Below are positions 4,029 through 42,240 of a stretch of DNA of 42,665 nucleotides, piece after piece. The stretch's first letter is position 1, and each line of letters starts with the position of its first letter. This stretch comes from an uncultured Bacilli bacterium (GTDB taxonomy: Bacteria; Bacillota_I; Bacilli_A; RFN20; CAG-826): positions 1 to 42,665 of the forward strand of contig CALWAS010000014.1 of assembly GCA_944375905.1 (NCBI GenBank). Direction: 5' to 3'. The position numbers and the translations under genes are program-made. The notes under the pieces were generated by a model, which was not told the DNA's origin, did no database searches, and saw only the letters and a program-made list of their open reading frames with translations.

Positions 4029-5789
4029 GTGGATAGCGAAAGAAAAGAACGAAAGCCTGAACTTCCGGAAATCCCTCTTTCCGAGCACCCGGATCCTTAT
4101 TTCGAGCGGCCCGGGTATTTCTCGCTCAACGGCGATTGGTCGTTCCAAATGGGGAAGGATCCGTCCTTTCCAAAGGAACTCAAGGAAACTATAACGGTTC
4201 CCTTTGCCGTCGAATCTCGGCTTTCGGGAATCGGACGCAAGGTCATGCCCGACGATTGGCTCTTTTACAAGAAGGAGATCCATTTTCCTTCCGAGTTCGT
4301 AGGCAGGGCAGGGCGAATCGTCTTCACGGCCGTGGACCAAGTGGCCGACGTTTTCATCGACGGAAAGAAGGCGGCTCACCATGCCGGCGGCTATCTTCCT
4401 TTCGAGGCGATGATTAGCGAGGTCAAGCCGACGATGGAGCTCTCGCTCATCGTCCACGATGATACGAGGAGCGAAGTCTACCCGCGCGGAAAGCAATCGC
4501 TAAAGCCGGGCGGCATATGGTATACCGCCACGAGCGGCATCTACGGACCGGTTTACTTCGAGTCCTTTCCACGCGCCGGGCATATAAAAAACATTTTCCT
4601 CTTTCCGGACTTTGATAGGAAAATGCTTCAAATCAAGGCCGAAATTGCAGGCGTTTTTTCGCCGATTGTCCTTGAATGCTACATAAAGGACCACAAGGTC
4701 GGCGAGGCGACGATCGGCCCTTCGCTCCGGGCCGAGATCGATCATTCCGGCGACTTCTTTCCATGGTCGGCCGAAAACCCTTCGCTCTATCGCTACGTGG
4801 CCAAGATGGGCAGAGACGAAGTCAGGGGCGTCTATTCCTTCCGAAAGGTCGAGCGAAGAAAAATCGGGCGCTTTGAACGCATCTTGCTAAACGGCAACCC
4901 CATCTTTCTCAACGGGCTTCTCGATCAGGGCTATAACCAAGAAGGCGGTCTTACCTATCCATCCTATCAGGCGATGGAAGACGACATCCGCTTTGCGAAG
5001 AGCCTTGGCTACAACTACCTTCGCAAACACATAAAAATCGAGCCCCGGCGCTTTTACTATCTTTGTGACAAAATCGGAATCTACGTCGGCCAGGATTTCG
5101 TCAACGGCGGCTCGAAGTACTCTTTTGCCTACATGGCGCTCCGCCCCTTCCTGAACTTCGACGTCGATGATCTCACCCATTCCCATTTGGGCAGGAAGAA
5201 CCCCGAAAGCCGGGCGTTCTTCGAAAACTCGATGGAGCCGACGGTTGCCTATCTTTTCCCGTCTTCCTCCATTCTCGTTTGGACGCTATTCAACGAGGGG
5301 TGGGGCCAATTCGACAGCGATCGGCTTGCCGCTTATTTGAAAAGCCTCGATCCGACCCGGCTCATCGATGCCACTTCGGGGTGGTATGACAAGGGGTCGG
5401 GCGACTTTTCCAGCCACCATGTCTATTTTAGGAAGGTGCGGATCAGGAACGACGGGCGTCGCATCCTTGCCTTAAGCGAGTTCGGCGGCTATTCCTGCCG
5501 CGAGAAAGGCCATTGCTTTTCAAAAAAGAGCTTTGGCTATCGTTTCTTCAAAAACGACGAGCGGCTTTCCGAGGCCATCGAAAAACTATACCTTCGCGAA
5601 ATCGAGCCCCTGGTTAGGGAAGAAGGGCTGTCGGTCCTCGTCTATACGGAGCTAAGCGACGTTGAGGAAGAGGTCAACGGCCTTGTTACCTTCGACCGAG
5701 AAAAGGCAAAGGTCGACCCTTCTAAAATGAAAGCAATCATGCAGCGCCTCGAGCACTCGTTCGAACAATCGGTCAAGGAGAGACGTTGA
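4029..5789 (+). CDS. glycoside hydrolase family 2 protein (beta-galactosidase/glucuronidase type)
   Basis: Retaining beta-glycosidase of 586 residues, shorter than LacZ and closer to the compact GH2 enzymes. An N-terminal jelly-roll sugar-binding domain (about 20-190) contains YFSLNGDWSF and the DQVADVFIDGK stretch, an Ig-like domain follows (about 195-275), and the TIM barrel carries the acid/base E423 in LFNEGWGQ and the nucleophile E484 in ALSEFGGYS. No signal peptide is present, so it acts inside the cell on imported glycosides; which sugar cannot be told. GTG 4029 is the chosen start, 6 bases after a TAGAAT box and without a Shine-Dalgarno sequence. The next gene starts within its stop codon (TGATG), so the two are co-translated. 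Confidence 0.88.
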   Translation: MDSERKERKPELPEIPLSEHPDPYFERPGYFSLNGDWSFQMGKDPSFPKELKETITVPFAVESRLSGIGRKVMPDDWLFYKKEIHFPSEFVGRAGRIVFTAVDQVADVFIDGKKAAHHAGGYLPFEAMISEVKPTMELSLIVHDDTRSEVYPRGKQSLKPGGIWYTATSGIYGPVYFESFPRAGHIKNIFLFPDFDRKMLQIKAEIAGVFSPIVLECYIKDHKVGEATIGPSLRAEIDHSGDFFPWSAENPSLYRYVAKMGRDEVRGVYSFRKVERRKIGRFERILLNGNPIFLNGLLDQGYNQEGGLTYPSYQAMEDDIRFAKSLGYNYLRKHIKIEPRRFYYLCDKIGIYVGQDFVNGGSKYSFAYMALRPFLNFDVDDLTHSHLGRKNPESRAFFENSMEPTVAYLFPSSSILVWTLFNEGWGQFDSDRLAAYLKSLDPTRLIDATSGWYDKGSGDFSSHHVYFRKVRIRNDGRRILALSEFGGYSCREKGHCFSKKSFGYRFFKNDERLSEAIEKLYLREIEPLVREEGLSVLVYTELSDVEEEVNGLVTFDREKAKVDPSKMKAIMQRLEHSFEQSVKERR

Positions 5790-6574
5790 TGCCCATCAAA
5801 GCTGCCTTTTTCGACATCGATTGGACCATCTTCGACCACGATAGACAAGACTGGGATTGGCCATCCATCAAGGCAATCGCGGAACTTAAGAAGAAAGGAG
5901 TCGATTCTTTCCTCGCGACCGCGAGGCCCCTTGATTCCATCACTGAGTTAGGCGCCTTCGACCTCGGGATCGAATGGCGAGGGTATGTATCGTCGGCCGG
6001 CGCCTACTCCGTGGTCGACGGAAAGACGGTGAAGGAGTTCCTCATCGATGAGGAAAGTGCCGTCTCGTTTCTGCGCTTCATTCGCTTCCTTGGCATCGGT
6101 TGCGAGATCGTCTATGAGAGGGAGTGCCATTTCTTCGGCATCGATACGCCTTTTTCCAATTCGTACTACAAAGAGTTCCATGAAACCAAGCGTCTTTCGA
6201 GCGCAGGCAGGCCCCGCGCCCAGAATGTCGTCGGATTCAATCTTTTCGCCGGCCCGGAGTACGATGCTCTCTTCGCTAGGAAATTCCCGAATCTCCATTT
6301 CAAGAGATACGCCCCGTTCGGCGTCGACGTGATGAGCTGCCTTCGCGAGAAAAGCGACGGCATCAAGGCAGTGCTCGACTATTGCGGCTATTCAAAAGAA
6401 GAAGCGATTGCCTTCGGGGACGGCGTCCAGGACATCCCGATGGCCTCTTCCGCCCGCTTTGTTGCCATGGGAAACGCCAGCGACGAAGTCAAGGCGGCAG
6501 CCGACGAAATAGCCCCTCCGGTCGCCGAGAGCGGCGTCTATCGCCATCTAAAGCAAATCGGGTTGGCCGATTAG
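5789..6574 (+). CDS. HAD-superfamily phosphatase (Cof-type)
   Basis: Cytoplasmic phosphohydrolase of 261 residues, probably acting on a sugar phosphate or similar small metabolite. Motif I is DIDWT (D9, D11), motif II lies near FLATARP, and motif III/IV is FGDGVQDIPM near the C-terminus; the cap between them is of the Cof/type II kind. The usual glycine of DxDGT is tryptophan here, which leaves the catalytic aspartates intact. ATG 5789 shares its first base with the GH2 stop and has AAGGAG 8 bases upstream, a clear internal ribosome site in a two-gene unit. The pairing suggests dephosphorylation linked to glycoside use, but that is inference. Confidence 0.85.
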   Translation: MPIKAAFFDIDWTIFDHDRQDWDWPSIKAIAELKKKGVDSFLATARPLDSITELGAFDLGIEWRGYVSSAGAYSVVDGKTVKEFLIDEESAVSFLRFIRFLGIGCEIVYERECHFFGIDTPFSNSYYKEFHETKRLSSAGRPRAQNVVGFNLFAGPEYDALFARKFPNLHFKRYAPFGVDVMSCLREKSDGIKAVLDYCGYSKEEAIAFGDGVQDIPMASSARFVAMGNASDEVKAAADEIAPPVAESGVYRHLKQIGLAD

Positions 6575-6600
6575 TTCTACCAACCGCGCGCATACGTGAG

Positions 6601-6606
6601 TAAAAT
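6601..6606 (+). promoter_or_regulatory. -10 box of the polyamine operon
   Basis: TAAAAT lies 9 bases before ATG 6616. No good -35 box and no Shine-Dalgarno are seen. A GGTTGG/CCAACC inverted repeat (6561-6585) lies upstream, spanning the end of the preceding gene; it lacks a T-run, so it is not a normal terminator. Confidence 0.5.
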
Positions 6607-6615
6607 GACCCGGCA

Positions 6616-9234
6616 ATGAGCCATTTAGATCAAAGCGAAACGCCGTTCCTGACCGCGCTCGATCAAGCGTCAAAGGAAATTAAATCGCCTTTTGACGTTC
6701 CAGGGCACCATCTTGGAAACATTTCGACGAAGGCGGTGGACGTCATCGGCCACCGCGTTTACGAGTGCGACGTCAACGCTCCTCTTGGCATGGACAATCT
6801 AGCCCAGCCGCGCGGAGTGATCCTTCAATCGGAACGCCTGCTTGCCGATGCCTGCGGAGCCGACGATGCTTTCTTCCTCGTCAATGGGACGACCGGCGGG
6901 ATCCTAGCTATGTTCCTGGCGGCATTGAAGGCAAACGACAAGGTAATCTTGCCTCGAAATGTTCACAAATCCGTCATCAATTCTTTGATTTTGTGCGGGG
7001 CCATACCGGTTTACGTGATGCCGGAGATCGACGACGAACTCAACATCGCCAACCAGCCTTCGCTCAAGGATTGGGAAAAGGCCATGCGCCAGCATCCGTC
7101 GGCCAAAGCCATTTTCGTCATCAACCCGACTTATTTCGGGGCCGTCGGCCCTTTGAAGGAACTCGTTTCCTTGGCCCACGCCCGCGGCATGGCCGTCCTC
7201 GTCGATGAGGCCCATGGCGCTCATTATTACTTTCACGGGTCGAGGGGCCTCTGCTCGGCCATGGATGCGGGGGCGGACCTTTCGAGCGCCTCGTTCCACA
7301 AGACGGCCGGCTCCCTTACCCAAAGCTCCGTTCTATTGATGCACTATGGGTTCTTTACCCGCGAAGACATCCAGAAATCGCTCAACGTCCTAACGACGAC
7401 GTCGCCTTCCTCGATTCTCATGGCTTCCATCGACGGGGCCAGGAGCTACATGGCTTCCGAAAAGGGAAGGGAAGATATCGAGCACGTCTATCTCTTGAGC
7501 GACTATGCCCGTTCGGAAATCGCCAAGATCGACGGCTTCTATGACGTTTCCCGCGAGCATTTCATCCGTCATGGCGCCTACGATTACGATGTCACGAAAC
7601 TCGTAATAGGCCTCGATAGGCTCGATATTTCCGGTTTTGACCTTTACCGCATTCTCCGAGAGAAATACGAAATCCAGATGGAGCTTGCCGAAAGCCACGC
7701 GGTGCTCGGCATTTTGGCCATCGGAACCAAGAAAGAGCATGTCGACCGTTTGATTGCCGCCCTGAGGGAAATCGGATCCGAGCACTTCCGCCCGGACATG
7801 AAGAAGGCCGATCCCAATATCGACCTTTCCTTCCCTTTCATGCTTATCAGGCCACGGACGGCTTTCCATGCCCCGGGCAAGGTACTCCCCCTCGATGAGC
7901 TCGACGGGGAAATCTCGAAGGAACAGGTCATGATCTACCCGCCGGGAATCCCCCTCATTTGCCCGGGCGAAGTCTGGACCAAGGATCTAATCAGGCGCGT
8001 CAAGGGCTATGAAGCCTGCGGCGTCAAGACGATGTCGTCCTACACGGACGGCTTCGAGGTCGTGGACACGAGGAACTGGAAGCGTTTCCGCGTTTACGAG
8101 AAGAAGCTCGGCGATTATCTCGAAAGCAAGATCACGACCCCGCGAGAGGATGGCTACCGCCTTCCTTTCGAGGGCAAGCGCCACGATTGCGTTTTCGTGC
8201 TCGCCCCCTACCGGGCCGACACTTGGCGCGAAGGCGCCGAGCCTGCCGTTAACGAGATTAAGCGCCTGGTCGAGGAAATAGCGCGCTTCGAGCCGGTCGT
8301 GGTGGGTATCCATCCGAGCCACTACAAGCGCTTGGCTCCGCGTTTTCAGGGAATTGAGAACGTCAAGACGATATCCATCCGCTACAACGATTCCTGGGCC
8401 CGTGACATTTTCCCGTTCTTCCTCAACAACGGAAAGAAAATGCGGACGCTGGATTTCCGCTTCAACGCTTGGGGAGGCGACGTCGACGGGCTCTACAAGA
8501 ACTACCGCGACGACGACCGGATTTCCGAAATCATCTCCAAGAGGATGAAGTTAAGGAGCTACTACCTGAATGATTTCGTCCTCGAAGGCGGCTCGGTTGT
8601 CCTCGATGGCGAGGGGACGCTCATAACGACCGAGGCGTGCCTTCTTTCGAAAGGGCGCAACCCGACGCTTTCAAAAGCCGAAATCGAAGACCGCCTGATG
8701 GAATATTTCAACGTCGAAAAGGTCATTTGGCTGCCTCATGGCATCTATCAGGACGAGACCAACGAGCATGCCGACAACATGGTGGCGTTCGCCCGTCCTG
8801 GCGAGGTCTTCCTCGCTTGGAGCGACGATCTCGAGGATCCCCAGTATGAGTATTCCCACGATGCGCTTGCGATTTTGAAAAACGAACGCGACGCGAAGGG
8901 GAGGAACTTCAAGATCCACTTCCTGCGCACTCCGTCTCCGGCCCTCAGGATGAGCGAGGCGGAAGCCCGCGGGCTCAAAAAGGAGAGAACGACCCTCGAC
9001 GTAAGGGAAGGCGGGCGGAGGCTGGCCGCGAGCTACGTCAATTTCATCCAAGGCGAAGACTACGCCATCATCCCGGGATTCGGGGTGAAGGAAGACCGCT
9101 TGGCCCATGAGGAGTTCAAGCGCGTTTTCCCAGAGAAGGAAATCATTCAGATTCCGACCCGTGAGATTCTTCTCGGAGGCGGGAACATCCATTGCCTTAC
9201 CATGGGCGTCGCATCTATCGAGGAAAAGAAATGA
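6616..9234 (+). CDS. fused arginine decarboxylase - agmatine deiminase
   Basis: An 872-residue bifunctional protein. Residues 1 to about 510 are a fold-I PLP decarboxylase of the Orn/Lys/Arg (SpeA/YaaO-like) family: DVPGHHLGNI near the start, VNGTTGG, VDEAHGAH, and the PLP lysine K229 in SFHKTAGSLTQ. From about 520 to the end is a full agmatine deiminase: VLAPYRADTW, NDSWARDIFP, FNAWGG, LEGGS, DETNEHADN and the catalytic C860 in GGGNIHC. Together they would turn arginine into agmatine and then N-carbamoylputrescine. The deiminase half and the amidase next door make arginine the likely decarboxylase substrate. The family form DETNGHVDN has two changes here, but the histidine remains. One continuous frame without a stop or frameshift joins the halves, so this is a true fusion. 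Confidence 0.9.
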   Translation: MSHLDQSETPFLTALDQASKEIKSPFDVPGHHLGNISTKAVDVIGHRVYECDVNAPLGMDNLAQPRGVILQSERLLADACGADDAFFLVNGTTGGILAMFLAALKANDKVILPRNVHKSVINSLILCGAIPVYVMPEIDDELNIANQPSLKDWEKAMRQHPSAKAIFVINPTYFGAVGPLKELVSLAHARGMAVLVDEAHGAHYYFHGSRGLCSAMDAGADLSSASFHKTAGSLTQSSVLLMHYGFFTREDIQKSLNVLTTTSPSSILMASIDGARSYMASEKGREDIEHVYLLSDYARSEIAKIDGFYDVSREHFIRHGAYDYDVTKLVIGLDRLDISGFDLYRILREKYEIQMELAESHAVLGILAIGTKKEHVDRLIAALREIGSEHFRPDMKKADPNIDLSFPFMLIRPRTAFHAPGKVLPLDELDGEISKEQVMIYPPGIPLICPGEVWTKDLIRRVKGYEACGVKTMSSYTDGFEVVDTRNWKRFRVYEKKLGDYLESKITTPREDGYRLPFEGKRHDCVFVLAPYRADTWREGAEPAVNEIKRLVEEIARFEPVVVGIHPSHYKRLAPRFQGIENVKTISIRYNDSWARDIFPFFLNNGKKMRTLDFRFNAWGGDVDGLYKNYRDDDRISEIISKRMKLRSYYLNDFVLEGGSVVLDGEGTLITTEACLLSKGRNPTLSKAEIEDRLMEYFNVEKVIWLPHGIYQDETNEHADNMVAFARPGEVFLAWSDDLEDPQYEYSHDALAILKNERDAKGRNFKIHFLRTPSPALRMSEAEARGLKKERTTLDVREGGRRLAASYVNFIQGEDYAIIPGFGVKEDRLAHEEFKRVFPEKEIIQIPTREILLGGGNIHCLTMGVASIEEKK

Positions 9235-10816: not shown

Positions 10817-12682
10817 GTGAAAAAACATTTGCCCTTTTTGCTCTCACTATCCGCCCTTGTCCTGCTTTCGTGCACGCCTAGCAATATAAGCAGCGATTCC
10901 TCTTCTTCTCTGTCCTCTTCGTCCTCCAATTCGATTGTTCTCGATTCAAGCGATTGGTCGAGTTACGAGGAAACGAGCGAGGAAGTCTTCGAAGGGGAAA
11001 TAGGTAGCGAGGTCGTTCTCGACGGAAGCGACGCGGTAGCGTTGGAAGGCGGCCTTTCCTTTTCCATTGGCGGCGGGCTTGGCATCAACTCAAGCCTTTC
11101 GTCGGCCGAAGGCGGGAAAATCTTCCTTCTAGACGGGGCTTTCATGAGCAACGAAGAAGCCTACTCTTCCTTTACCGGGATCGAGGTCGATTTCTCTTCG
11201 AGCGACGAAACGTCGTTCCTACTTGCCAAGGGATCGTACTTTTCAATCGACAATGGAGCGATTGGCGCCAAGCCCCTCGCATCGGGAATGAGACTCGATT
11301 TCGAAGATGGATGCCGTTATTTCTCCCTTTACGCGGCCGTCGGCTCCTTTGAGATCGACGCCATACGCCTTTATAGCGAAAAGGACATGGATAGAGAGGC
11401 TCGCGAAATCGGTGCGATCGACATCTATACGATCAACGATACCCACGGCGGCATGACCTACAACGGGGAAGACGGACAATACCAACTCGGGATTTCCAAG
11501 CTCTCGGCCGTTTACGAAGACGCGTATTCGAAAAATGTCGACGGTACGGTCATCCTCTCCTCGGGCGACATGTGGCAGGGAAGCGCGATCAGCAACCTGA
11601 CCTATGGAGAGGCAATGATACGGTGGATGAACCTCGTTGGCTTTGACGCGATGGCCGTTGGCAACCACGAGTTCGACTGGGGAAGCGAAAGAATCGCCAC
11701 CAATAGCGAAATCGCCCATTTCCCGTTTCTCGGGATCAACGTCCGCGACGATGAGGGCGAAATGCCTCCCTTCATGAGCCCAAGCAAGGTCGTAACCCGC
11801 GGCGGCGTGAGAATTGGCATCGTCGGCGGCATCGGCCGTCTCGAGGGTTCGATTTTGGCCTCGAGCCTCGGAGGCTATTATTTTGCCGATTATTCATCGC
11901 TCATCGACCTCGAGGCGAAGCGTCTCCGTTACGAAGAAGGATGCGATATCGTCGTTGCCTCCCTCCATAATGGCGATCTCGATACAAGGTACTGCCACGA
12001 CATCGATGCCGTTTTCCTCGGACACGACCACGTAAGCGACTATTTTCTCGATAACTATGGAATTCCGCATGTGAAATGCTGGGCCAACGGCTCGGACATC
12101 CGCTCCGTCCGCTTCGTTAGGGACGAGAACGGCAATTGGGTTTTCGATGGCAAGGAGCGCGATTACGGATTCGCGGAAGGCAGCGAGCTAGCCGATGAGA
12201 CGAAAGCCGCCGCCCTCCTTTCCTATTACGAAGGCGAATTCGAAGCGGTCCTCAATGAAGAAGTCGGCTATGCGGAAGAAACGATCTCGACGCGCGAACT
12301 CGTTTCCATCGCGACGGAAAGTCTTTACAGATTCTACAAGAGGGATTCCTGGTATCCGGAAATCGCCATGTCGATTGTAAACACGGGGTGCGCCCGCCAG
12401 GACATCGTCGACGGGACCATTACCTATGGCGATGTTTACGCTTCCTTCCCCTTCGACAACGATCACATATTCGCCTATGTCGACGGCAGCGACATGTCCT
12501 ATGTTTCGCGCAACAACGCGACTTACTACGAGGACAGCAATTGGGTAAAAGGCGAAAAATACTTAGTCGTTGTCATTTCCTATGTCTATGAGAAGGCAAC
12601 CTACATCTACGAGGAAGTGGGACGCGACAGCGTCAACCGGCTCCGCGATGTCGTAAGCAGCTATTTCCTAGGGGAATTATGA
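10817..12682 (+). CDS. 5'-nucleotidase / metallophosphoesterase lipoprotein
   Basis: Surface lipoprotein of 621 residues: signal peptide with lipobox LLSC (lipidated C19), then a serine-rich linker. Residues about 45-200 form a region of unknown type, rich in acidic residues and predicted strands. From about 200 comes a calcineurin-like phosphoesterase: N207-D208-x-H210 (INDTHGG), GD in SSGDMWQG, N283-H284 (GNHEFDWG), a histidine in ASLHNGD, and H403-D404-H405 (LGHDH). The C-terminal part (about 480-615) is a 5'-nucleotidase substrate domain (NTGCARQDIVDG, YGDVYASFPFDN). It likely releases phosphate and nucleosides from extracellular nucleotides. GTG start, no Shine-Dalgarno. It overlaps the patatin gene by ATGA. 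Confidence 0.88.
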   Translation: MKKHLPFLLSLSALVLLSCTPSNISSDSSSSLSSSSSNSIVLDSSDWSSYEETSEEVFEGEIGSEVVLDGSDAVALEGGLSFSIGGGLGINSSLSSAEGGKIFLLDGAFMSNEEAYSSFTGIEVDFSSSDETSFLLAKGSYFSIDNGAIGAKPLASGMRLDFEDGCRYFSLYAAVGSFEIDAIRLYSEKDMDREAREIGAIDIYTINDTHGGMTYNGEDGQYQLGISKLSAVYEDAYSKNVDGTVILSSGDMWQGSAISNLTYGEAMIRWMNLVGFDAMAVGNHEFDWGSERIATNSEIAHFPFLGINVRDDEGEMPPFMSPSKVVTRGGVRIGIVGGIGRLEGSILASSLGGYYFADYSSLIDLEAKRLRYEEGCDIVVASLHNGDLDTRYCHDIDAVFLGHDHVSDYFLDNYGIPHVKCWANGSDIRSVRFVRDENGNWVFDGKERDYGFAEGSELADETKAAALLSYYEGEFEAVLNEEVGYAEETISTRELVSIATESLYRFYKRDSWYPEIAMSIVNTGCARQDIVDGTITYGDVYASFPFDNDHIFAYVDGSDMSYVSRNNATYYEDSNWVKGEKYLVVVISYVYEKATYIYEEVGRDSVNRLRDVVSSYFLGEL

Positions 12683-39318: not shown

Positions 39319-39353
39319 GTTGTAATAAAAAGGCTCCCTCAGCCGTTTGGTAG
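39319..39353 (+). promoter_or_regulatory. ECF-type promoter of the sigma operon
   Basis: GTTGTAATAAAAA (39319-39331), 11 bases, CCGTTTGGTAG (39343-39353). The same two blocks at the same spacing recur before the lipoprotein gene. TGTAAT and CGT are 17 bases apart, like the TGtAAC-N16/17-CGT promoters of Bacillus ECF factors. An imperfect inverted repeat (GGCTCCCTC 39332-39340 with GAGGGTGCC 39358-39366) surrounds the -10 block. Confidence 0.75.
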
Positions 39354-39384
39354 ATGGGAGGGTGCCTAGGAATGGGATTGGACC

Positions 39385-39906
39385 GTGGAACGGGAACTAA
39401 ACGATTACATCGAAGAATTCCGACGGGGAGAGTATGCCTCGTTCCCTCTTTTTTACGAGGCCACGCACCGCAAAGTCTATTACATTGCATACGGGCTTCT
39501 TGGCTCGGAATTCGACGCGAAGGACGTAAGCCAGGACACCTACGTACGTTTCATCTCGTCCCTCTCCTCTTACCGAAGCGGTTCGAATCCCTATGCCCTC
39601 CTGGCCACGATCGCCCGCAACCTAGCCTATGACTTGCTGGAAAAGAAAAACCGTCTGACTTCCTTCGAGGAAGAAATAGGCAATGAGGAGGAAATATCCC
39701 GAAAAGAGGAACTCTCCGATTCGGGCGAGGTCAAGCGGCTCCTCCAAGCCCTTTCCCCGGGAGAAAGGGAAATCGTCGTCCTTCATGTCCTAGACGGGCT
39801 TAAGTTCCGGGAGATTGCTCCGATTGTCGGGAAAAAGCTATCGACCGTTCTTGTCACTTATAACCGCGCAATAAAGAAGATGCGGGGAAAGGAGGAAGGC
39901 AAATGA
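39385..39906 (+). CDS. ECF-family RNA polymerase sigma factor
   Basis: Sigma factor of 173 residues. Region 2 spans about residues 15-90 (YYIAYGLLGSEFDAKDVSQDTYVRF, then ARNLAYDLLEKKN). Region 4 spans about 115-170 (LSPGEREIVVLHVLDGLKFREIAPIVG, a helix-turn-helix, then YNRAIKKMRGK). Region 3 is absent, as in ECF factors. The start is GTG 39385. The next gene overlaps its stop by ATGA and encodes a membrane protein of anti-sigma layout. Its own promoter matches that of the lipoprotein at 41182, implying autoregulation. Confidence 0.92.
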   Translation: MERELNDYIEEFRRGEYASFPLFYEATHRKVYYIAYGLLGSEFDAKDVSQDTYVRFISSLSSYRSGSNPYALLATIARNLAYDLLEKKNRLTSFEEEIGNEEEISRKEELSDSGEVKRLLQALSPGEREIVVLHVLDGLKFREIAPIVGKKLSTVLVTYNRAIKKMRGKEEGK

Positions 39907-41012
39907 AGAGAAAAGATGCGGAAGAAGCGCTCATCAAGGCCGCCAATTCGATGAAGATCGAAGACGACCTCGAGGATACTTTTCGCTTGGTCAAGGCCAA
40001 CTCCCCCCTGACTTCTCCCGTTCCCGAGCCCGAAACTCGGAAAAGAAAGGGAAGGGCATACCGCGGGATTCTCGTTTTCGGAGCGGCCGCTTCGGTTGCC
40101 TGCGTCGGCCTTTTCGTCGGCCTTTCTTTCATCCCGCCGGCGAACGTTCCCTCCGTTTCCGTTTCCGGAAGCCAGCCGACGGAAATCCCCGCGACATCGG
40201 TGCCGACGCCGTCGACCCTTTCGAGCGAGGAAGCCAATGCCTTCGCCAAACAAGCCGTTTCCCTGCTTTCGCTTGCTTCCTCCTTTTCTGGCGATGCCGC
40301 GCCTATCTCCAGAGGAAACCGCCTGAATGCGCGTTTCGATAGGGGAGACAATGCCGACTTCTCGCTAAGCGACGCCCAAAAGAACGAAATCGCCGCCGAC
40401 ATCGATTCCTTCATTTACATGGTCGAAGAGTTCAGCCGGAGCGATTCCTTCGTCATTGATCTCGTGAGCGACGATACGTCGATCAGAGTCGAAGACGGGA
40501 GCGACGTCTATCTCATCGACTACCAGGAAACCCAGATAAGCGCTGCCGTTTCCCTCTTCGAAGGCACCATTTCCTTCGATGGCTCTAGCGTCTATCGCTT
40601 TGAGGGGGCAATCGAGGAAAAGGGAGCGGAAAAGGAAGTTGAGATGCGTCTCGACCTCGAAGGAATAACCATCAAGGTCGAACAGGAAATCGAACAAGGG
40701 GAAAACGAGTATTCCTATTCGTTTATAAAAGACGGGGAAAGCAAACCTTATCGCAGCGTCGAGTTCGAGCGCGAAATCGCGGGGCGGGAAAACGAGAGCA
40801 GCATCGAAATCGAGGAGGAAGGACTCAAGCGCAGCTGCGAGTTCGAGCATCTCGATGGCGATGGGCTAGGCGACCATTTCCGGGCCGAATACGAAAAGGA
40901 GGAGATGGGCGGCGCCGAGATAGAGGCCGAAGTCTACGTCAGGAAAACGGGCGAAGGCTCCCATTCCTATACGTTTGGCGACGGCTACGTTACGAACATC
41001 GATCGCCGCTGA
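39903..41012 (+). CDS. single-span membrane protein, probable anti-sigma factor
   Basis: 369 residues: a charged cytoplasmic head (1-53), one membrane segment (about 54-77, GILVFGAAASVACVGLFVGLSF), a proline/serine-rich spacer and an extracytoplasmic domain rich in Glu and beta-strand pattern (about 140-365). This is the layout of membrane anti-sigma factors, and it is translationally coupled to the sigma gene, but no known anti-sigma domain is recognisable in the short head. The outer domain resembles the body of the co-regulated lipoprotein: compare VEQEIEQGENEYSYSFI with ISQEMEFLENEYEYKLV, each followed by a similar strand series. A terminator follows. Confidence 0.65.
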   Translation: MKRKDAEEALIKAANSMKIEDDLEDTFRLVKANSPLTSPVPEPETRKRKGRAYRGILVFGAAASVACVGLFVGLSFIPPANVPSVSVSGSQPTEIPATSVPTPSTLSSEEANAFAKQAVSLLSLASSFSGDAAPISRGNRLNARFDRGDNADFSLSDAQKNEIAADIDSFIYMVEEFSRSDSFVIDLVSDDTSIRVEDGSDVYLIDYQETQISAAVSLFEGTISFDGSSVYRFEGAIEEKGAEKEVEMRLDLEGITIKVEQEIEQGENEYSYSFIKDGESKPYRSVEFEREIAGRENESSIEIEEEGLKRSCEFEHLDGDGLGDHFRAEYEKEEMGGAEIEAEVYVRKTGEGSHSYTFGDGYVTNIDRR

Positions 41013-41033
41013 AGACAATCGGCTTAAGCGGCT

Positions 41034-41060
41034 GCCGCCTCATAGGCGGCTTTTCTTTTC
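41034..41060 (+). terminator. terminator after the sigma operon
   Basis: GCCGCC-TCATA-GGCGGC, perfect 6-bp stem, then TTTTCTTTTC. It lies 21 bases after the stop of the anti-sigma-like gene. Confidence 0.85.
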
Positions 41061-41101
41061 TTTGAAAAGAATTTAATCGATGGCGAAAAAATGTGATTTT
41101 C

Positions 41102-41136
41102 GTTGTAATAAAAACGGCATCTTGTCCGTTTGGTAG
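41102..41136 (+). promoter_or_regulatory. ECF-type promoter of the lipoprotein gene
   Basis: GTTGTAATAAAAA (41102-41114), 11 bases, CCGTTTGGTAG (41126-41136): both blocks are identical to those of the sigma operon with the same spacing, while the 11 bases between differ. A GGGGC-TCGA-GCCCC hairpin (41143-41156) sits in the leader. Confidence 0.75.
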
Positions 41137-41181
41137 GCGTAAGGGGCTCGAGCCCCGGAAAGTGAGTAAAGAAAACTGAAT

Positions 41182-42138
41182 ATGAAAAAGAACGGACTTC
41201 TACTTGCCCTCGGAGCGGGCCTCATCCTTGCCTCCTGCACTGGAGGAAAGGTCGTCGGAACGACCTCGGAGTCGGTTGGGGACACGACGCTCCCGATCGA
41301 TACCTCCGTGCCGGGTACGGGCAGCGTCCAAGACGACGACACGACCTACCTCGCCCAGTCGATTATGTCGATCAACCTTCTTGGCGGCAGCTCGGCAAGC
41401 CCTCTGGGCCTAAGGAAGACTTCCCCCAGCATCAGCCCGACGATTTACGACGAAGCGGCCGAGGAAATACTATCCGGAATCGAAGGCGTCGCCTCCATCG
41501 TAAATTTCAATCCCCAGTCGATCCAGGAATCGGCCTCCGACCGCGAGGGGTATGCGAAGCTATACACCATCACCCTTTCCTCAATCGAGGGAGATAGCGA
41601 AACCTATTCCCTCTATTTCAACGAGACGACGAGGACCAATAACGAAGGTCGCGACGAGGTCGAGACCATCACGACCCTCAAGGGACTGGCGATCAAGGAC
41701 GGGGTCGAATATACCCTCTCCGGAAAAAGGACCGTCGAGATCGAGGGACGCGAGGAAGAAACCGAACTCGAGCTCCGGATTTCCGTCGATAGCCTTAACT
41801 ACGTCGACATCTCGCAGGAAATGGAATTCCTCGAAAACGAGTATGAGTACAAGCTCGTCGAGGGCGGAAGGACTATCAAGGAAGAGGAATTCGAAATCGA
41901 GCAGGGTCGCAACGGGATGCTAGCCGTTACCTTGGAACGCGAAATCCAAGGCCAGGAATTCGAGATGACCGTGCTATCCAACGAAGGCACGATCATCGGA
42001 GCCATGGTCGAGGTCGAAATCCGGGGACTGGGCGAAATCACCGGGGAAATAACCCTCTCGAAAAACGAGCAGGGAGCGGATGTCTACACGTTGAAATTCC
42101 GCGGCTACGACAAGGTCTATACGAAAGTCGTGGCTTAA
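41182..42138 (+). CDS. lipoprotein of the sigma-factor module
   Basis: 318 residues with a lipoprotein signal peptide (MKKNGLLLALGAGLILASC, lipidated C19) and a Thr/Ser/Gly-rich spacer. The remainder (about 95-318) is strand-rich and acidic, with repeated short amphipathic strands. The region about 165-300 resembles the outer domain of the anti-sigma-like protein encoded just before it, suggesting a gene duplication. Its promoter is the twin of the sigma operon's. No enzyme motif is seen. A sensing, buffering or envelope-binding role as partner or target of the sigma system is inference. It ends at a terminator that carries an IS-like insertion. Confidence 0.75.
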   Translation: MKKNGLLLALGAGLILASCTGGKVVGTTSESVGDTTLPIDTSVPGTGSVQDDDTTYLAQSIMSINLLGGSSASPLGLRKTSPSISPTIYDEAAEEILSGIEGVASIVNFNPQSIQESASDREGYAKLYTITLSSIEGDSETYSLYFNETTRTNNEGRDEVETITTLKGLAIKDGVEYTLSGKRTVEIEGREEETELELRISVDSLNYVDISQEMEFLENEYEYKLVEGGRTIKEEEFEIEQGRNGMLAVTLEREIQGQEFEMTVLSNEGTIIGAMVEVEIRGLGEITGEITLSKNEQGADVYTLKFRGYDKVYTKVVA

Positions 42139-42152
42139 GCCGAAGAACAAAA

Positions 42153-42240
42153 AAAGAAACCCCTGTTCTGAAGTGAGCCCCAAATGTTGGACAAACCAAC
42201 AGGAGGGGCTCACTTCATTCTGCAGGGGGTTTTTCTTGTT
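42153..42240. terminator. bidirectional terminator interrupted by an IS-like palindrome
   Basis: AAACCCCTG (42157-42165) would pair with CAGGGGG-TTTTTCTT (42223-42237). The two arms are separated by the 49-base palindrome at 42169-42217. Removing that insert and one TTC copy leaves a compact hairpin with a 5-base loop between convergent genes, with T-runs on both strands. Confidence 0.7.
42169..42217. mobile_element. 49-base IS3-like miniature palindrome
   Basis: TGAAGTGAGCCCC (42169-42181) and GGGGCTCACTTCA (42205-42217) are perfect 13-bp inverted repeats. Inside, TGTTGG/CCAACA form a second stem around ACAAA. TTC flanks both sides (42166-42168 and 42218-42220), a 3-bp duplication as IS3-family elements make. 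The tips TG...CA and the CCCCAAATGTTGGACA string resemble IS150-group ends. I read it as an element deleted down to its two ends, or a MITE. Confidence 0.65.

Follow-up and report, generated by a model that had tools for sequence, protein, structure and literature searches.

A candidate self-contained ECF σ/anti-σ switch in uncultured Bacilli whose apparent target lipoprotein is paralogous to the sensor

Here we describe a three-gene module that may function as a self-contained ECF σ/anti-σ switch, in which the σ factor would induce a lipoprotein paralogous to the sensor domain of its own anti-σ factor, and in which that lipoprotein would take the ligand of the sensor and so close a feedback loop; we put the probability of this reading at roughly one half. 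The stretch of DNA analysed (hereafter the window; 42,665 nucleotides) makes up the whole of contig C14 in a 1.22-Mb genome. The nearest named relatives that we found are Candidatus Alloenteromonas pullicola and Candidatus Alloenteromonas pullistercoris, of a genus that NCBI lists under Bacillota incertae sedis. Comparisons were made with samples of 37 genomes from the genus, 279 genomes (56 genera) from the order, and a draw of 395 genomes (193 genera) from the class.

All features of the module lie on the forward strand of the window. The first gene (39385–39906), which has a GTG start, encodes a σ factor of 173 amino acids that contains σ2 and σ4 domains only, with matches above cut-off to Pfam Sigma70_r2 (2.4e-14) and Sigma70_r4_2 (4.4e-11) as well as to TIGR02937 (1e-22). 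An earlier sequence-only reading had noted that this gene is coupled to one for a membrane protein with a single span, and the two genes indeed overlap at an ATGA. The second gene (39903–41012) encodes a short cytoplasmic head (residues 1–54; 39903–40064), a membrane span recognised as a hydrophobic stretch behind a basic segment (residues ~55–77; 40065–40133), and an outer domain that we take to be the sensor (residues ~105–369; 40215–41009). A coupled gene with this same anatomy is kept in the σ–membrane protein–lipoprotein triads examined, and the membrane protein is almost certainly an anti-σ factor. The third gene (41182–42138) encodes the putative target, a lipoprotein of 318 amino acids with the lipobox LASC and its cysteine at position 19, the body of which spans residues 52–318 (41335–42135). 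A hairpin predicted to act as an intrinsic terminator (41034–41050) lies between the anti-σ and lipoprotein genes, so that the module probably forms two transcription units. Directly 3' of the lipoprotein gene is a near-perfect inverted repeat (42171–42216; GTGAGCCCCAAATGTTGG...CCAACAGGAGGGGCTCAC), the left arm of which occurs in the genome five times exactly and once almost exactly; it resembles a small repeat of a mobile or structured kind. Three more ECF σ genes are present in genome G000 (C13:3392–3862, C6:9003–9479 and C6:32027–32521), and behind each of them comes a gene for a larger membrane protein that does not carry a paralogous outer domain.

The head of the membrane protein had been said to show no known anti-σ fold, and this holds in part. 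The HxxxCxxC motif of the zinc-binding class I (ZAS) heads is absent, residues 1–54 containing neither histidine nor cysteine. However, short heads have precedents: RsiV has 36 residues before its membrane span at residues 37–59 (PMC4183432), and CnrY binds its σ factor through a class II head of two helices (PMC7406223), so that a head of 54 residues is not unusual in size. Moreover, the model of the window protein shows two short helices in the head (residues 3–16 and 23–32, pLDDT about 63–70). No match to a known family was detected for the membrane protein in Pfam or NCBIfam. In particular, the window protein and 20 relatives gave no Pfam match to DUF4163/DUF3298 (the RsiV family), no RsgI-type head domain was matched in either Pfam or NCBIfam, and searches with 21 anti-σ factors (Pfam and NCBIfam) and 23 lipoproteins (Pfam) returned only scattered single weak matches.

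The same bipartite motif stands before both putative transcription units. Specifically, the twin promoters proposed from the window sequence were recovered as mismatch-free copies of GTTGTAATAAAAA-N11-CCGTTTGGTAG at 39319–39353, before the σ gene, and at 41102–41136, before the lipoprotein gene, with 0 copies expected from 100 dinucleotide shuffles. The first of these has TGTAATAAAA as its putative −35 element and CCGTTTGGTAG as its −10 element and can be written TGTAAT-N17-CGTTTG; the second has the same motif and spacing, and each is kept upstream of its gene in relatives. No σ70-type promoter was found in the module region. When the whole 1.22-Mb genome was scanned, TGTAAT-N17-CGTTTG occurred exactly at only these two places. 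Other matches carry one or two mismatches and are about as numerous as those to a reversed-pattern control, and the related pattern GTAATAA-N15-CGTTT, with one mismatch allowed, added a single further site. We thus rejected the idea that the motif is a genome-wide repeat.

An orthologue of the σ factor, 50–70% identical to that of the window, was found in 10 of the 37 genus genomes (the window genome counted), and the lipoprotein orthologue was found in the same 10. In these ten genomes the pattern GTAATAAA-N14-CGTTT matched exactly 18 times, always before the σ gene or the lipoprotein gene: it precedes both genes in eight of the ten, and occurs once in each of G011 and G018, the second copy there being a variant form. 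The motif marks both genes even in G032 and G017, although the lipoprotein gene lies ~5–8 kb from the σ gene, and in G025, although it lies on another contig. By comparison, the 27 other genus genomes held six scattered matches, and the reversed pattern matched seven times in all 37.

More distant modules have other motifs, which are likewise common to the σ and lipoprotein genes of any one genome. These promoters share a −35 core of CCAAT or CCAAC together with AAA, whereas the −10 element is clade-specific (TGTATTAA, CGTATTTAT or GTTA-type), and the motif class of the window, defined by TGTAATAAA and CGTTT, coincides with exactly one σ clade (support 100/100). In other clades the twin motif reached z values of up to 13 against shuffles at single loci, with a minority of loci near background. 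Among 25 σ/lipoprotein pairs compared with shuffles over whole 35-mers, most exceeded all shuffles; G057a, G029, G028, G007, G055 and G041 did not, although in most of them the −35 core can be made out by eye. In a second set, the 30 complete triads among 40 further loci picked by matches to the lipoprotein profile, the core preceded both genes in 25 triads where 0.6 would be expected. The shared putative promoter has CGT in its −10 element, and the −35 core reads AAT (within TGTAAT) in the clade of the window and CCAAC or CCAAT elsewhere, the reference pattern for ECF autoregulation being an AAC-type −35 element with a CGT-type −10 element. Conservation here means a match to a consensus sequence; so understood, it supports the earlier proposal that the ECF module is autoregulated and has twin promoters, and it speaks for a private regulon. 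Apparently the σ factor turns on only its own operon and one lipoprotein gene, as judged by pattern scans that allowed mismatches and that weaker third targets could escape.

The outer domain of the anti-σ factor and the body of the lipoprotein had been described as alike, and several comparisons indicate that they are homologous. BLASTP aligned the two window proteins with an E value of 1e-6 over 102 residues, and a profile of the lipoprotein family detected the window membrane protein with an E value of 1.1e-11. In profile comparisons the figure was 97.4% within the clade (E 1.1e-11), 99.0% across and, for other families, 99.7% (E 3.9e-25), and the alignments stay collinear, starting at the membrane span or the signal peptide and ending at the C-terminus. 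Profile scores were 88–176, as compared with 30–37 for reversed profiles and at most 23 for column-shuffled ones. Reversed and shuffled profiles keep composition, and convergent composition was accordingly ruled out as the cause of the likeness. In many genomes across the class the lipoprotein profile also picks up the membrane protein next door; in the window genome it revealed no convincing further carrier of the domain. In AlphaFold models built from 10 sequences (anti-σ factor) and 13 sequences (lipoprotein), with mean pLDDT values of 67.7 and 71.5 and of mostly 70–90 in the outer parts, both domains show the same succession of elements: two helices, then 15 antiparallel strands. Profile and model comparison thus support paralogy between the target lipoprotein and the sensor domain. 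The two tests by which the earlier reading could have failed, the motif as a genome-wide repeat and unrelated outer domains, therefore both turned out in its favour.

Neither model had a confident match in the PDB. The best VIA Z values (8.6–8.9) were to porin-type meanders with an r.m.s.d. above 5 Å, OspA scored a Z of ~7, and Foldseek gave E values of at least 0.1 for both models, which we treated as no match; nor did a sequence search of solved structures return anything significant. The half barrel of LolA and RseB and lipid-binding folds were not among the best structural matches, in model-based searches that could miss a true relationship. Both outer domains proved strongly acidic in all the species that were checked. 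We did not take this acidity to point to a cationic ligand, because a lipoprotein of 621 amino acids encoded elsewhere in the window (10817–12682) is equally acidic.

The lipoprotein family is widespread. At an E value of 1e-3 its profile matched 174 of the order's 279 genomes, spread over 37 of 56 genera, with weak scores in many cases, and at 1e-10 it matched 97 of the 395 genomes drawn from the class (44 of 193 genera). The full triad stands on one strand at 30 of the 40 further loci. Two genomes of one family (G037 and G049) have the σ factor and a shorter membrane protein with no lipoprotein gene next door. Other variants also occur. The locus L134 of Candidatus Alloenteromonas pullicola (4411–6729) has a gene for a secreted protein of 772 amino acids between the anti-σ and lipoprotein genes, and in three relatives (L160, L161 and L162) there is a gap of ~900 bases at this place; L164 (333–2665) has two family lipoprotein genes in tandem and no σ gene on the stretch examined; and at L092 (6062–9000, G055) a gene that by eye is Cas9-like at its start lies just downstream of the module. 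Lipoproteins of 445–515 amino acids at L165 and L186 and among the matches in G271, G275 and G276 match the profile twice per reading frame, and the domain seems to be duplicated within these single proteins.

The two sets of domains appear to be old paralogous families. In a joint tree, to which long-branch caveats apply, most membrane-protein domains stand apart from the lipoprotein domains, which suggests that the domain was duplicated before the module spread. The lipoprotein and the anti-σ outer domain are only ~25% alike in most species. In G045, however, the outer domain of the membrane protein groups with the lipoproteins, and two blocks of it are 57% and 50% identical to the lipoprotein of its own genome. 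The head and span of this protein still resemble those of the anti-σ factor of a sister genome, whereas its outer domain is only ~24% like the sister's. From these comparisons we read G045 as a case in which the sensor domain was replaced by the domain of the lipoprotein, which argues that sensor and lipoprotein must recognise either the same thing or each other. The replacement is clear in this one genome only. A membrane-anchored protein at L096 (239–1528, G012), the outer part of which scores 127 bits as a lipoprotein and 58 bits as an anti-σ factor, is possibly a second case; its σ gene would lie past the end of the contig.

We propose that the switch may work as follows. At rest, the inner head of the anti-σ factor would hold the σ factor, as gene order and anatomy suggest. 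Binding of an outside ligand to the 15-strand outer domain would lead to cleavage of the anti-σ factor and release of the σ factor; the genome carries one M50 site-2 protease, and no site-1 protease was identified. The freed σ factor would transcribe its own operon along with the lipoprotein gene, a step that promoter conservation supports, and the lipoprotein would be lipidated (LspA is present) and anchored outside. There it would bind the same ligand, both removing it as an effector and competing with the sensor, resulting in negative feedback. That the lipoprotein would capture the same ligand is suggested by the paralogy and by the one natural replacement of a sensor domain. Competition for one ligand, as the sequence-only reading had suggested, is plausible; the two domains, being only ~25% alike and members of two old families, could nevertheless have diverged in what they bind.

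The main rival is direct contact between the two proteins. In this scheme, which we consider rather unlikely, the induced lipoprotein would bind the outer domain of the anti-σ factor in an RseB-like way, two copies of one domain pairing with each other, and would shield it from the first protease or present it to that protease, so that feedback would stem from contact between the proteins instead of from rivalry for a ligand. Pairing between homologous domains is common, the replacement in G045 would be in keeping with a self-pairing domain, the lipoprotein mostly comes under the same σ factor where a σ gene adjoins, and RseB binds RseA and contributes to sensing (PMC4183432). Against it, lipoproteins also exist that have no adjoining σ gene and are under other promoters: of the seven such genes examined, none has the core of the motif, and some have σA-like promoters by eye, which suggests that the lipoprotein has a job of its own. 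These orphans would also suit a second rival, to which we give a clearly smaller chance, namely that the lipoprotein deals with an envelope stress (for example a toxic peptide, a lipid or an enzyme) and that the sensor inherited the same recognition without any meaningful feedback. Such sensor–effector paralogy has precedent in BlaR1 with its β-lactamase and in RsgI, but the strict pairing of one σ factor with one lipoprotein gene, with no further target found, is unlike most envelope-stress regulons. That the membrane protein is some other signalling partner, or that the likeness of the outer domains reflects a shared acidic, strand-rich composition, is highly improbable and already largely refuted: the head matches no known anti-σ family and both domains are very acidic, as is another lipoprotein of the window, but composition-keeping controls fall far below the true profile scores, the lipoprotein profile recovers the neighbouring membrane proteins across the class, and the operon overlap and gene position are typical of anti-σ genes.

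The proposed decoy circuit resembles several known systems in part. Like σV/RsiV of Bacillus subtilis, it places an ECF σ factor beside an anti-σ factor with one span and a very short inner head, and in RsiV the outer domain is itself the receptor and a site-2 protease acts (PMC4183432); unlike RsiV, the window protein has no match to DUF4163/DUF3298. The RsiV target set includes lysozyme-resistance genes, and a paralogue of the RsiV outer domain is not described in the literature covered. An outer module of RsgI can be of the same type as modules in the proteins under RsgI control. In Clostridium thermocellum, where RsgI acts with σI, these outer domains can be carbohydrate-binding modules or hydrolase domains, for example CBM3 and GH10 (PMC12203970). 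However, σI/RsgI differs from the window system in σ family and anti-σ head, and its sensor modules derive from a range of enzymes; in the window system, by contrast, one target gene encodes the paralogue and the regulon is seemingly limited to two promoters. As in the module, the sensor domain of BlaR1 and the β-lactamase that is induced are paralogues. Yet BlaR1, on the sensor domain of which there is published work (PMC5957439, PMC9834060), is a metalloprotease receptor that acts on a repressor, and the module would be a σ/anti-σ switch. RpoE/RseA/RseB likewise combines a σ factor, a one-span anti-σ factor and a third, extracytoplasmic protein; RseB binds RseA but is not described as its paralogue, and the window lipoprotein, unlike RseB, has its own σ-type promoter in a unit set off by a terminator. 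CnrH/CnrY likewise has a short head with no zinc motif, the two helices of which would correspond to the pair predicted for the window protein, a likeness of anatomy for which we found no sequence link, and CnrY is not known to have a large outer domain of the window type. Among the titles and abstracts listed in searches of the open literature, we found no ECF module with a paralogous lipoprotein as its target.

The anti-σ factor and the lipoprotein form a pair of families with no curated description and a fold with no confident PDB match, and the circuit, with its two promoters and three genes, recurs in minimal form across a class of uncultured gut Bacilli with reduced genomes, in which envelope sensing has been little studied. 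We tentatively suggest that such modules constitute a widespread and so far undescribed class of one-target σ circuits, in which a lipid-anchored paralogue of the sensor acts as a ligand decoy and in which the decoy domain can overwrite the sensor, as in G045, keeping both matched. The promoter pairs offer ready-made candidates for orthogonal σ–promoter sets, and the paralogy of sensor and target inside a σ circuit makes decoy feedback directly testable. If the decoy reading is true, the cell makes a decoy of its own sensor.
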